Below are positions 7,188-24,079 of a DNA stretch of 47,273 nt, piece after piece. A program made the position numbers and the translations under genes. How positions within the stretch are numbered: position 1 is the first letter of the stretch; each line of letters opens with the position of its first letter. The notes beneath the pieces were generated by a model. That model did no database searches. It had not been told where the DNA came from and saw only the letters and a list, made by a program, of their open reading frames with translations. The DNA is from Solirubrobacterales bacterium (lineage in GTDB: Bacteria; Actinomycetota; Thermoleophilia; Solirubrobacterales; 70-9), in contig DATMZR010000025.1 in the NCBI GenBank assembly GCA_035573435.1, forward strand, positions 1-47,273, given 5' to 3'.

Positions 7188-7217
7188 TGCGCGTTTCACG
7201 CGCACGACAAGGAGGAG
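7188..7217 (+). promoter_or_regulatory. Leader hairpin followed by strong ribosome binding site
   Basis: A 7-bp stem (TGCGCGT/ACGCGCA) with a 3-base loop occupies 7188-7204. Four bases later comes AAGGAGGAG (7209-7217), eight bases before the ATG at 7226. The second paralogue has the same arrangement with an unrelated hairpin sequence. Confidence 0.6.
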
Positions 7218-7225
7218 ATCGATAC

Positions 7226-8074
7226 ATGCGGACTAGGAGACGCATCGCACTACTCTTGTGCTCGGCCGCGGCTCTCGGGGTGGGCTTCATCGCCTTCCCG
7301 GCGAGCTCCGCCGCCGCGCCGCCGGTGGTGCCGATTTGTACGCCGCCAGCGGGGGCGGGCAGCGATTCCTGCGCGTCGCTGCGGACCACCGCGCTTGCCC
7401 CGCCGATCGGCTCGGCGCTCGAGAACATCAAGCTGGGCGTTCGGGTTCGGTCGATCTTCACCGGGACCAGCGAGACGACCAGCGTCAAGTTGCAGTTCGA
7501 TGAGAACATCGCGCTCAACCTGGCGGGGATCCCGAGCTGTCCCGCGTCGGAGTTGGTGAACAAGAACCTCGCCCAGGCCTGGGAGCAGTGCGGCCCGGGG
7601 GCCGACGGCAGCCCGGCCAGCGAGGGCAACGCCTATCTGTCGACGGGGCTGGGTAACAACGTCAGCGGCCTCGGGTCGACGATCCCGAACGGCGGAGGCG
7701 CTGTCGCCTGCACGATGATCTTCAAGGGTGCAGATAACACCCACGTGACGATCTACGCGCGGGCCCCGGCGAACACCTCCGGGTGCGACAACCCCGCGAC
7801 CAACACCGGTGGCACGACCACGGTGCTGTTCACGGGCGCGTTGACACATCAGGCGGCCAGCTCGATCTACGACTGGACGCTGACCGTGCCGAACACCCAG
7901 ACCGCGGACCCCGCCCTGGACGATTTCTACGCGACGCTTTCGCGTGGAACCGCCTTCCGGGCGAAGTGCGTGACCAGGAGCCCGAGCGCCCACAGGATGC
8001 AGGGAACCTGGGATTACACCGCCGTCGGTGATGCGAACGACAACTACACGGCGGTACATGCGTGCCCCCACTAG
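7226..8074 (+). CDS. Secreted protein, paralogue 1 of a tandem pair
   Basis: 282 residues from the ATG at 7226, chosen because a textbook AAGGAGGAG lies eight bases upstream; an in-frame start at 7166 lacks one. A Sec signal peptide is clear: Arg-rich start, hydrophobic core to about residue 25, then an Ala-rich cleavage region (SSAAAPP). The mature part is rich in Thr, Gly and Asn, with paired Cys and the motif LAGIPSCPAS followed by QAWEQCGPGADG. I do not recognise an enzyme domain; it resembles extracellular beta-rich proteins common in Solirubrobacterales. The next gene is a clear tandem duplicate. Function unknown; location outside the cytoplasmic membrane is well supported. Confidence 0.85.
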   Translation: MRTRRRIALLLCSAAALGVGFIAFPASSAAAPPVVPICTPPAGAGSDSCASLRTTALAPPIGSALENIKLGVRVRSIFTGTSETTSVKLQFDENIALNLAGIPSCPASELVNKNLAQAWEQCGPGADGSPASEGNAYLSTGLGNNVSGLGSTIPNGGGAVACTMIFKGADNTHVTIYARAPANTSGCDNPATNTGGTTTVLFTGALTHQAASSIYDWTLTVPNTQTADPALDDFYATLSRGTAFRAKCVTRSPSAHRMQGTWDYTAVGDANDNYTAVHACPH

Positions 8075-8193: not shown

Positions 8194-8228
8194 GGGGCAG
8201 GCGCCACCTGCCCCGGTACAAGGAGGAG
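8194..8228 (+). promoter_or_regulatory. Leader hairpin followed by strong ribosome binding site
   Basis: A perfect 8-bp stem (GGGGCAGG/CCTGCCCC) with a 5-base loop spans 8194-8214. Five bases later comes AAGGAGGAG at 8220-8228, eight bases before the ATG at 8237. The layout matches paralogue 1 but the hairpin sequence is different. Confidence 0.6.
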
Positions 8229-8236
8229 ATTCATAA

Positions 8237-9070
8237 ATGAGGACCAGGAGACGCATTGCGTTACTTCTGTGCTCGGCCGCGGCTCTCGGGGTGGGCTTGA
8301 TCGCCTTCCCAGCGAGCTCCGCCGCCGCGCCACCGGTGGTGCCGACCTGTAATCCCGTGGCCTCGACAGGAAGCGATTCCTGCGTCAGCGGCAAGGTCAC
8401 GGCGGTCAGCCCACCGCTTGGGACCGCGCTCGAGCCCATCAAGCTGGGCACTCGGGTTCGCTCGGTCTTCAGCCCATCGACCGACGAGACGACCAAGGTG
8501 GTCGTCAAGTACGACGACGCCGGCACGATCAACCTGGCCGGAATCCCGAGCTGTCCCTCGTCGGAGCTGGTGAACAAGAACGTCTCCCAGGCCTGGGAGC
8601 AGTGCGGCCCGGGGGCCGACGGCAGCCCGGCCAGCGAGGGCAACGCCTACCTGTCGACGGGGTTGGGGAACAACGTCAGCGGGATCGCGTCCACCATCCC
8701 GAACGGAGGAGGCGCGGTCGCCTGCGTGATGATCTTCAAGGGTGCCGACAACACCCACATCACGCTGTTCGCGCGGGCGCCGGCGAACACGTCCGGGTGC
8801 GACAACCCGGCGACCAACACCGGCGGCACCACGACGGTGCTGTTCACGGGCACCCTGACGCAGCAACCCGCGTCCTCGCCGTACGGCTGGACGCTGACAG
8901 TGCCCAACACCCAGACCGCGGATCCCGCCCTGGACGACTACTACGCGACCACCAGCCGTGGAAGCGCCTTCCGGGCGAAGTGCGAGAACCCGCTCAAGAT
9001 CCAGGCGACGTTCACGTACACGAGCACGCCGACCGACACGGTCAACGGCACGAACCAGACGTGCCCGTAG
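8237..9070 (+). CDS. Secreted protein, paralogue 2 of a tandem pair
   Basis: 277 residues. The signal peptide is almost identical to that of paralogue 1 (MRTRRRIALLLCSAAALGVG) and long blocks of the mature protein match, including the LAGIPSCP and QAWEQCGPGADG segments and the NPATNTGGTTTVLFTG segment. The stretches after the signal peptide and near the C-terminus have diverged most. Same Cys pattern. The pair is a recent tandem duplication of gene, ribosome binding site and terminator. Function unknown; secreted or surface protein. Confidence 0.85.
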   Translation: MRTRRRIALLLCSAAALGVGLIAFPASSAAAPPVVPTCNPVASTGSDSCVSGKVTAVSPPLGTALEPIKLGTRVRSVFSPSTDETTKVVVKYDDAGTINLAGIPSCPSSELVNKNVSQAWEQCGPGADGSPASEGNAYLSTGLGNNVSGIASTIPNGGGAVACVMIFKGADNTHITLFARAPANTSGCDNPATNTGGTTTVLFTGTLTQQPASSPYGWTLTVPNTQTADPALDDYYATTSRGSAFRAKCENPLKIQATFTYTSTPTDTVNGTNQTCP

Positions 9071-11095: not shown

Positions 11096-12652
11096 GTGTC
11101 TTACTACATAACCACTCCGATCTACTACGTCAACGCAGAGCCTCACCTGGGGCACGCCTACACGACGATCGCCGCCGACGTCCTGGCTCGCCACATGCGC
11201 CAGCGTGGCGAGGACGTGTTCTTCTTGACCGGCACCGACGAGCACGGTGAGCCGGTTGCCCAAGCGGCCGAGAAGCTCGGCCTCGAGCCCCGGGAGCTCG
11301 CCGACCGCAACGCGCCCCGGTTCAAGGACCTGATGCCGAAGATCAATGCCTCGAACGACTTCTTCATCCGCACGACTGATCCACAGCACGAGGCCAAGGT
11401 CCAGGAGGTGACCCAGCGGGTCCACGACAACGGCCACGTGTACGAGGGGACCTACGAGGGCTGGTACTGCCCACGCTGTGCCGACTTCAAGACCGACTCG
11501 GAGCTGGGCGAGGGCAACACGTGCCCGATCCACAAGATCCCGCTGGAGCGCGAGCGGGAGGAGAACTGGTTCTTCCGGCTCTCCTCCTTCCAGGAGCAGC
11601 TCGAGCGCCTCTACGCCGAGCGCCCGGACTTCGTGCGGCCCCAGGCCCGCTACAACGAGGCCCTGTCGTTCATCCAGGGCGGGCTGGCCGACGTCTCGCT
11701 CTCCAGGCCGAAGCTGACCTGGGGAGTGCGGCTGCCCTGGGATCCAAGCCAGGTGATGTACGTGTGGTTCGACGCGCTGCTCAACTACATCACCGCGCTC
11801 AGCTACGCGCGGGAGGGCGAGGACCTGACCGAGCGCTTCTGGCCGGCGTTCCACATCATCGGCAAGGACATCCTCAAATTCCACGCCGTCTACTGGCCCG
11901 CCTTTCTCATGGCCGCGGGCTACGAGGTGCCAAAGCGGATGTTCATCCACGGCTACCTGCTGATGGAGGGCCACAAGATGTCGAAGTCGCTAGGTAACGT
12001 GCTCGACCCCTTCGAAGTGATCGAGCGGTTCGGCGCCGACCCGCTTCGCTACTACTGCCTGCGCGAGGTCCCGTTCGGTCGCGACGGATCGGTCTCCGCC
12101 GCGGGATTCGAGGCCCGCTACGAGGCGGAGCTCGCGAACGAGTACGGGAACCTCGCCAGCCGGGCGCTGGCGATGATCGAGCGCTACCGCGATGGTCGCG
12201 TGCCCGAGGCGGATCCCGACCCGGAGCTGGCCGGCGGCGAGGCCGGCCTCGCCGGGCTGGAGAACCGGGTCGCGGAGCTCCTCGACCGGGCCGAGCTGAC
12301 CCAGGCGCTGGAGGAGATCTGGGTGCGCGTGCGCCGGCTGAACCGCTATGTCGAGGAGACCCGCCCCTGGGACCTTGCCAAGGAGGAGAAGGCGGACCCT
12401 GGCAAACCCGGTCGCTCGCGGACGCGAAGCGGAGCAAGCGACCGGCTTGATGAGGTGTTGTACGGGCTTGCGGAGGGCGTCCGGGTCGTCAGTCTGTTGC
12501 TGTACGCGTACATGCCAGAGACCGTGGACCGGTTGCTGGCGGCAGTGGGCGAGGACGATCGAGCCCTGGCGTCGTTCGGCTCGCGCGGCGGCGGCCAGGC
12601 GATCGGGAAGCTCGCACCGCTGTTCCCGAAGATCGAGACGCCGGCGGCGTAG
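11096..12652 (+). CDS. metG: Methionyl-tRNA synthetase with an in-frame hairpin insertion
   Basis: 518 residues. Class I synthetase that charges tRNA-Met. The HIGH-type motif HLGH is at residues 17-20 and KMSKS at 294-298. A single zinc knuckle is formed by CPRC (125-128) and CPIH (143-146), the Cys3-His form known from Thermus MetRS. The protein lacks the C-terminal dimerisation/tRNA-binding extension found in many bacteria. The GTG start at 11096 was chosen because the protein then begins VSYYITTPIYYVN, the usual N-terminus. Residues about 435-449 (PGKPGRSRTRSGASD) interrupt a helix of the anticodon-binding domain between KEEKAD and RLDEV; they are encoded by a palindromic repeat element. 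Confidence 0.97.
   Translation: MSYYITTPIYYVNAEPHLGHAYTTIAADVLARHMRQRGEDVFFLTGTDEHGEPVAQAAEKLGLEPRELADRNAPRFKDLMPKINASNDFFIRTTDPQHEAKVQEVTQRVHDNGHVYEGTYEGWYCPRCADFKTDSELGEGNTCPIHKIPLEREREENWFFRLSSFQEQLERLYAERPDFVRPQARYNEALSFIQGGLADVSLSRPKLTWGVRLPWDPSQVMYVWFDALLNYITALSYAREGEDLTERFWPAFHIIGKDILKFHAVYWPAFLMAAGYEVPKRMFIHGYLLMEGHKMSKSLGNVLDPFEVIERFGADPLRYYCLREVPFGRDGSVSAAGFEARYEAELANEYGNLASRALAMIERYRDGRVPEADPDPELAGGEAGLAGLENRVAELLDRAELTQALEEIWVRVRRLNRYVEETRPWDLAKEEKADPGKPGRSRTRSGASDRLDEVLYGLAEGVRVVSLLLYAYMPETVDRLLAAVGEDDRALASFGSRGGGQAIGKLAPLFPKIETPAA
12408..12445 (+). repeat. 38-base palindromic element, copy 1 (inside metG)
   Basis: A 9-bp terminal stem (12408-12416 with 12437-12445), a C/A mismatch, two more pairs, a GGA/GA internal loop and an apical minihairpin CGC-GAA-GCG. 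It matches copy 2 (13506-13543) at 31 of 38 positions, and all differences except one in the apical loop are compensated pairs. It is read in frame as part of MetRS. Similarity between the copies also includes ACCC just upstream. Confidence 0.85.
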
Positions 12653-13505: not shown

Positions 13506-13543
13506 CCGGCCGCCCCCGGACGCGCAGCGGAGGAGGCGGCCGG
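13506..13543 (+). repeat. 38-base palindromic element, copy 2 (rsmA leader)
   Basis: Same structure as the copy in metG: 9-bp terminal stem (13506-13514 with 13535-13543), conserved C/A mismatch, two inner pairs, GGA/GA internal loop and apical CGC-GCA-GCG. The right arm carries GGAGGAGG (13529-13536), the only Shine-Dalgarno candidate for rsmA. The element fills most of the 58-base gap between tatD and rsmA. Confidence 0.85.
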
Positions 13544-22780: not shown

Positions 22781-24079
22781 TCAGCCCCCCAGATACCGGG
22801 CAAGCGCGAACGTGTCGCGGCCGAAGCCGACCGCGACGATCCTGCCGTCGCCCTGGAGCGCCATCCCAAGCGCACCGTCGAAGCCGTCGGAGCCGCCGAA
22901 GCTGGTCCGCTTCCTGCCGTCGGCGGAGAAGCTCGTGTCCAGCGAGCCGTTCGTGTTGTAGCGGGCCAGTCCGAAGTCCCCGGGACCGGCGCCGCCGCCG
23001 ACTTGGCCGACCGCGACGATCCTGCCGTCCGCCTGGATCGCGACGTCGGTTGCCATCTCGCCGGCCGCGTACGGGAAGCTGGTCGTCTGCTTGCCGTCGC
23101 CGGAGAAGCTCGTGTCGAGCGAGCCGTTCAGGTTGTAGCGGACGAGCGCGAAGTCACGGTTGCCGCCGGAGTCGTGGCCGCCGACCGCGACGATCTTGCC
23201 GTCGCCCTGGAGCGCCACCGCGCTCGCAGAGTCGTAGGCCCCGCCGAAGTCAGTCGTCTGCAGGCCGTCGCCGGAGAAGCTCGTGTCAAGGGAGCCGTCG
23301 GTGTTGTAGCGGGCGAGCTCGAAGTCGCCTCCGCCGCCGCCGACCGCGACGATCTTGCCGTCGCCCTGGAGCGCCACCCCGCCCGCCCGGTCGTCCCCGG
23401 CGCCCGCGAAGTCGGTCGTCTTCTTGCCATCGCCGGAGAAGCTCGTGTCGAGCGAGCCGTTCAGGTTGTAGCGGGCGAGCGCGAAGTCCCCGGCGCCGGA
23501 GCTGGGGTCGGTGGTGCCGACCACGACAATCTTTCCGCCCTGGACTGCCACCCCGACCGCCCCCCCTTCGGCGAAGGCTCCGAAGACGGTCGTCTGCTTG
23601 CCGTCGCCGGAGAAGGTCGGGTCGAGCGAGCCGTCCGGGTTGTAGCGGGCGAGGGCGAAGCCGCCGGTGCTATCGGCACTGAAACCGACGACGACGATCT
23701 TGTTGCCCTGAAGCGCCACGTCGGTGGCGCCGTCCGCGCCATTGAAGTCGGTCTGCACGCTGCCGTCGCCGGAGAAGCTCGGGTCGAGGGTGCCGTCCAG
23801 GTTGTAGCGAGCGACCAGGAAGTCCCCGTAGACCCCGATGAACTGTCCCACCGCGACGATCTTGCCGTCCGCCTGGCGGACGGCCGCCTCCGCCGTGCTG
23901 AACCCGCACTGGCAGAAGTTGGTCGTCTGCTTGCCGTCTCCCGAGAACGTCGGGTCGGGGTCGCCCGCGGCGGCCATGGCCGCTGCCGAGAAGACGAGAC
24001 TGACCAGCAAGGCAAGGACCACGCCATGTCTCACGGGCCTTGGAGTCACGGTCAACTGAGAAAGAGGGTTTCGACGCAT
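22781..24079 (-). CDS. Secreted delta-60 repeat protein
   Basis: 432 residues from the ATG at 24079, preceded by GAGG at a good distance; a TTG four codons upstream is less likely. A signal peptide runs to about residue 38 (cleavage near AMAAAGD). The mature protein is about seven repeats of some 55 residues with the pattern GSLDTSFSGDGKQTT, then VALQGDGKIVAVG, then DFALARYN, which is the delta-60 repeat. Such repeats probably form a beta-propeller or solenoid on the cell surface; function unknown. The DNA is itself strongly repetitive (unit near 165 bases), so copy number may change by slippage. Located inside the putative integrated element, between two SnoaL fragments. Confidence 0.92.
   Translation of the reverse strand: MRRNPLSQLTVTPRPVRHGVVLALLVSLVFSAAAMAAAGDPDPTFSGDGKQTTNFCQCGFSTAEAAVRQADGKIVAVGQFIGVYGDFLVARYNLDGTLDPSFSGDGSVQTDFNGADGATDVALQGNKIVVVGFSADSTGGFALARYNPDGSLDPTFSGDGKQTTVFGAFAEGGAVGVAVQGGKIVVVGTTDPSSGAGDFALARYNLNGSLDTSFSGDGKKTTDFAGAGDDRAGGVALQGDGKIVAVGGGGGDFELARYNTDGSLDTSFSGDGLQTTDFGGAYDSASAVALQGDGKIVAVGGHDSGGNRDFALVRYNLNGSLDTSFSGDGKQTTSFPYAAGEMATDVAIQADGRIVAVGQVGGGAGPGDFGLARYNTNGSLDTSFSADGRKRTSFGGSDGFDGALGMALQGDGRIVAVGFGRDTFALARYLGG

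Follow-up and report, generated by a model that had tools for sequence, protein, structure and literature searches.

An in-frame insertion in methionyl-tRNA synthetase of a Solirubrobacterales bacterium is very probably a copy of a family-specific palindromic repeat

The methionyl-tRNA synthetase (MetRS) gene, metG, of a Solirubrobacterales bacterium (GenBank assembly GCA_035573435.1) contains a hairpin-forming palindrome in its reading frame, which raises the question of whether the palindrome was inserted into the gene and, if so, what kind of element it represents. The gene lies on contig DATMZR010000025.1, which is contig 25 of a 2.58-Mb assembly (genome G000) and whose full 47,273 nucleotides are referred to here as the window; other genomes are likewise given G-codes, and loci L-codes. 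The metG product matches solved MetRS over its full length (2csx, E=2e-144) and is 65-85% identical to full-length orthologues from the same family. The analysis described below led us to conclude that the MetRS insert is very probably a single copy of a palindromic repeat that is dispersed, non-autonomous and specific to the family.

MetRS sequences from 30 family genes (that of G000 and 29 full-length orthologues) were aligned, as an earlier note on the sequence of this window had proposed. Residues 435-448 of the G000 protein are missing in 26 of the 30, which read W.LAK-DE-x4-LD (in the form KDESEADRLD), at a site where G000 reads ...WDLAKEEKAD-PGKPGRSRTRSGAS-DRLDEVLYGL. Solved MetRS structures also show a gap of about 15 residues exactly at the insert, between the conserved segments PW.L.K and LxxVLY..(V/A)EG. 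The note's claim that the hairpin sits in frame in MetRS is borne out by these 14 extra residues relative to the empty-site orthologues, but the size that it gave, 15 residues or 45 bases, had counted one native D and is corrected to a net 14 codons, or 42 nt. Likewise, the interval that it gave for the element, 12398-12445, extends into a native R codon, the net insert ending at 12439. We could not confirm the proposed helical placement, as the solved homologues are gapped here between two conserved segments. The gaps in orthologues and solved structures suggest a surface loop; single-sequence structure predictions (pLDDT of 38 for MetRS and 45 for the C-terminal part) were too poor for placing the insert. 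It looks as if the insert adds about 14 amino acids in a tolerant loop, and it is presumably neutral; the repeat is not known to play a part in the function of MetRS.

The four MetRS genes with a non-empty site (G000, G021, G023 and G030) differ in what they carry. MetRS of G021, a member of the same genus as G000, retains GGCGGAGCAGGCGATCGG, apparently the 3' half of the repeat. G023 has a full copy with the junction and frame found in G000 and with arms of its own (CTGGTCGCC/GGCGATCAG), whereas the site is empty in its congener G024. The copy in G030 lies a few codons upstream, in another frame, and has 6-bp arms (GCCGGC). Element-type residues go with the palindrome, or with half a palindrome in G021; the outcome that the earlier note had named as contrary to its claim, the same residues in homologues lacking the palindrome, was not seen. 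In a maximum-likelihood tree of MetRS, from which sparsely filled columns were left out, the well-supported branches force at least three changes of occupancy. These are most simply read as three gains, because one gain followed by many clean losses costs more changes, and if the forced changes are gains, then at least three insertions into MetRS have occurred within the family. Common ancestry of the G000 and G023 copies was rejected, since the sister G024 is empty and the tree requires separate changes.

The hairpin in MetRS consists of 9-bp arms, a C.A mismatch and 2 bp (GC/GC), followed by GGA-CGC-GAA-GCG-GA. Folded alone as a single strand it is only mildly unusual (z -1.67) for DNA as G+C-rich as this. 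Its recurrence, however, is far beyond chance: a covariance model (R1) built on the 38 hairpin columns found 14 copies in G000 with E<1e-5, a number that rises to 18 when E is allowed to reach 0.001, and there were no matches in 100 shuffles of the window. We read 111 copies with their flanks, from G000 and related genomes. The apex, GGACGCGAAGCGGA, is close to invariant across all of them. The arms vary in sequence yet remain complementary, with changes on both sides at 13 of the 14 pairs among 93 distinct copies. Double-changed cells in the arms numbered 135, as compared with a mean of 48 in shuffled data and at most 61 in controls with a slid partner; 86% of arm cells were paired, as compared with at most 61% when the partner was slid. 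Two forms of the repeat can be told apart. The short form, typical inside genes, has RAC before the 5' arm and C-TTG-TT after the 3' arm. In the long form, which runs to about 105 nt, a further hairpin (GCTAGCGACGAAGTCGC...) lies upstream, and there are also a CCTGCCG...GCCCTAA linker and the terminal sequence AGTTATTC; copies of this form are mainly intergenic and some are in tandem. At L004, L015 and L218 the long form stands in intergenic tandem with a period of 93-95 nt. Core matches also occur in threes with a period of 39 nt, or 13 codons (G043:C14:19258-19354, G043:C28:24930-25026 and G030:C21:33741-33837), suggesting in-frame tandem expansion. The window holds a second copy about 1.1 kb downstream of that in MetRS; depending on the start codon, it is either an N-terminal extension of KsgA or intergenic.

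Table 1. Position of the repeat copies and of their parts in the window, with the evidence for each.
Feature	Position	Strand	Evidence
metG, methionyl-tRNA synthetase, 518 aa, host of the repeat	11096..12652	+	Open reading frame; full-length matches to solved MetRS
Net in-frame insertion, 42 nt = 14 codons, residues 435-448, PGKPGRSRTRSGAS	12398..12439	+	Protein and codon alignment of 30 family MetRS, against empty-site orthologues
Palindromic repeat, short form, 38 nt, CCGGTCGCTCGCGGACGCGAAGCGGAGCAAGCGACCGG	12408..12445	+	Covariance model R1: 61.2 bits, E 3.8e-9 in the window; genome copies
5' arm, CCGGTCGCT; sequence differs between copies, pairing kept	12408..12416	+	Covariation, 93 distinct copies
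Conserved apical module, GC/GC closing pairs around GGA-CGC-GAA-GCG-GA	12418..12435	+	Nearly invariant in alignment and listing of 111 copies
3' arm, AGCGACCGG, preceded by a single conserved unpaired A (12436)	12437..12445	+	Alignment, copy listing, covariation
Second copy, between the tatD stop (13487) and the conserved ksgA start	13506..13543	+	R1: 54.5 bits, E 6.8e-8

According to the covariance model, the repeat is present in 24 of 50 family genomes and in 8 of 12 genera. Its copy number is patchy (44 in G048, 33 in G021, 18 in G000 and 16 in G043), and all 18 genomes of genus g2 have none. The exact core occurred in 14 of 28 family genomes but in none of 271 other genomes sampled from the class, while a reversed control pattern gave zero in the same family and class genomes. 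The named carriers are environmental assemblies labelled Solirubrobacterales (class Thermoleophilia, phylum Actinomycetota), Conexibacter sp., Thermoleophilia or Actinomycetota. Unrelated genomes, Streptomyces among them, were considered as carriers and rejected; their matches, of about 27-30 bits, cover the core without the arms and were treated as chance. No match to the 38-mer was found in phage collections, and viral collections gave a single core-only match in a viral contig, with the arms absent. A search against Rfam identified only a tRNA in the window and nothing in seven loci with the repeat.

MetRS is one of many hosts. At least 29 copies were called coding-internal, on the basis of a codon-usage score trained on MetRS that had to show the same frame coding on both sides. 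Hosts identified by curated profiles include CarB, IleRS, LeuRS, ArgC, farnesyl/polyprenyl diphosphate synthase, PlsX, UvrC, citramalate synthase, SdhB, UvrA, SMC, an Lhr helicase and an ABC transporter; Lon, NuoC and HisF are further hosts. In HisF of G021 (L214:509-1399, +) a long-form copy contributes 33 in-frame residues between segments that align to solved HisF, and the insert in PlsX aligns to a gap in a solved homologue. NuoC is occupied in G000 and empty in G021. The NuoC loop is long and P/G/A-rich in several other lineages (L395, L402, L405 and L415), where it may represent eroded insertions. In Lon, the loop that directly precedes GPILCFVGPPGVGKT (L356, L357, L358) carries the repeat in G049 and G021 and a degenerate insert in G000, and it is empty in the remaining orthologues read, congeners included.

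The consensus repeat has no stop codon and is open in all six frames, but the internal copies use only three of them. Among 100,000 uniform simulations, none was as extreme as the observed usage of 18:8:3:0:0:0. Two of the copies counted come from Lon and three from MetRS, another, beside EngA (L162), is possibly intergenic, and a simple codon score was used. The frames used encode PAAPGREAEEAAG (18 copies), PAASSASRPGAAG (8) and RPRTRSGGG (3; the frame found in MetRS and NuoC), while the unused frames encode PPPPDAKRRRRR, PPPPPLRVRGRR and RRLLRFASGGG. This skew points to selection on the encoded peptide.

The earlier note had likened the hairpin to the Rickettsia palindromic elements (RPEs), which occupy numerous Rickettsia genes in frame and leave at least one product, guanylate kinase, active (PMC2229807, PMC10969869). 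The likeness holds in that both are palindromes with an open frame, found in genic and intergenic copies and placed in frame in unrelated, often essential genes (PMC10969869, PMC2229807), as the 29 coding-internal copies illustrate. The repeat is nevertheless not a Rickettsia element. It lacks the CGTC tag reported for RPE-4/6-type repeats (PMC3733652), and RPEs are palindromes of about 105-150 nt in Rickettsiales, whereas the present repeat is a 38-nt hairpin, or a long form of about 105 nt, in one Solirubrobacterales-labelled family. It is far shorter than RPE-1-type elements and occurs in a different phylum; it is G+C-rich, with six open frames and with arms that vary freely but stay paired. 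Intragenic repetitive extragenic palindromes (REPs) of the GTAG and CGTC types, known from other phyla, offer another comparison, being hairpins of 20-40 nt with sub-families of complementary stem variants, some of them in frame in genes that include DNA-repair and tRNA-synthetase genes (PMC3733652). REPs, however, have a constant end tag, in place of which the present repeat has a constant complex apex. CGTC or GACG within 8 nt was found in at most 3 of the 111 copies per motif and side, and GTAG or CTAC in no more than 1 of them, again per motif and side; nor was a cognate Y1 transposase flanked by repeats seen here, as in the GTAG REP system with its REP-associated tyrosine transposase (RAYT). 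Integron attC sites conserve their structure, with arms of variable sequence and with unpaired bases, but by general description their apex is variable and their ends are conserved, whereas here the apex is the conserved part. Miniature inverted-repeat transposable elements such as ERIC and Correia are also short, non-autonomous and sometimes fused in frame to genes (PMC2229807), but terminal inverted repeats with a clear target-site duplication were not recognised here against divergent empty sites, and the genic form is much shorter. Our search of PubMed Central yielded no description of the repeat, subscription papers being outside its scope.

We consider it most likely that the repeat is selfish and non-autonomous, and that selection has confined it to permissive loops and hydrophilic frames. 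It combines a constant apex with co-varying arms whose pairing is maintained, and it survives in frame in many unrelated essential enzymes; that it was inserted is seen from the empty sites in MetRS (26 of 30), NuoC and Lon orthologues. Copies would spread through machinery that recognises a folded single strand. Purging would remove insertions that cause a frameshift, fall within a folded core or are read in a hydrophobic or highly basic frame, and the surviving copies would persist as nearly neutral loop spacers before eroding, a course suggested by the half element left in G021 MetRS. Several observations weigh against this account. No mobilising enzyme was found: Y1 transposases (PF01797) are present in 3 of the 50 genomes and no copy lies near any of them, and a RAYT/Y1 transposase is not supported as the mobiliser, showing no correlation with the repeat. 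Comparison with the divergent empty sites revealed no clear target-site duplication. The G000 and G023 copies share a junction and frame despite separate insertion, which suggests site preference or strong filtering. Finally, most copies have kept complementary arms, whereas selfish inserts should lose their pairing as they age, which RPEs are reported to do (PMC6649704); recurrent renewal or some maintenance may be needed. One could envision, tentatively, that the mover is an enzyme for which the constant apex and the pairing of the folded single-strand hairpin, rather than arm sequence or an end tag, serve as the recognition signal, in a system distinct from REP/RAYT.

An alternative that we regard as rather unlikely, though still a serious rival, is that template switching at replication forks makes or perfects the palindromes locally, a short core being copied around and its arms being produced, or repaired against one another, where it lands. 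This is an accepted route to perfected quasi-palindromes (PMC6649704) and would suit arms that differ freely among copies while staying complementary; moreover, the GACCGG in the MetRS 3' arm is a plausible native D-R codon pair, present in the empty-site MetRS of L084. It accords poorly, however, with the similar arm types at unrelated genes of one genome, such as CCGGTCGC in MetRS and NuoC of G000, or CCCGACACC and CCCGGCACG, each found twice in G048. Conservation also reaches beyond the arms (RAC before them; C-TTG-TT or AGTTATTC after), and the long form is a defined unit of about 105 nt. Far less probable is a functional RNA or DNA site, for example a translation-pausing hairpin or a protein-binding site, that is under positive selection in metG and elsewhere among the host genes. 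The strong conservation of apex and pairing and the many housekeeping genes that carry the repeat would fit such a role, but most orthologues lack the repeat, even within genera (G024 versus G023; G048 versus G049 for Lon), it occurs in both orientations and three frames in unrelated proteins, and no Rfam family matched. Ordinary loop-length variation in a G+C-rich protein, with a coincidental palindrome, can be dismissed, for although the MetRS loop (L090) and the NuoC loop vary in length also in genomes without the repeat, the 38-nt structure recurs at E 1e-5 to 1e-7 genome-wide and in other genera.

Two other repetitive features were observed in the window. About seven imperfect tandem repeats of 160-177 nt, with a conserved 43-nt block, lie at 22806-23957 in what is apparently a repeat-rich protein on the minus strand, and adjacent duplicated stretches about 1 kb apart, at 7207-7764 and 8218-8778, are 77-85% identical.

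The selfish-repeat reading extends protein-coding palindromes to an actinobacterial family that is known here solely from environmental assemblies. The repeat is short enough for occupied, half-deleted and empty sites to be compared across genera, and because the MetRS and Lon loops are each occupied in several lineages, repeated use of an insertion point, upkeep of the arms and the cost of the peptide become directly testable. The finding also serves as a warning that, in genomes of this kind, some 'insertions' in enzymes are spacers derived from repeats rather than functional adaptations. If a hairpin-recognising enzyme is indeed responsible, this would be a mobile system that has repeatedly added peptide spacers to the essential enzymes of a whole actinobacterial family.
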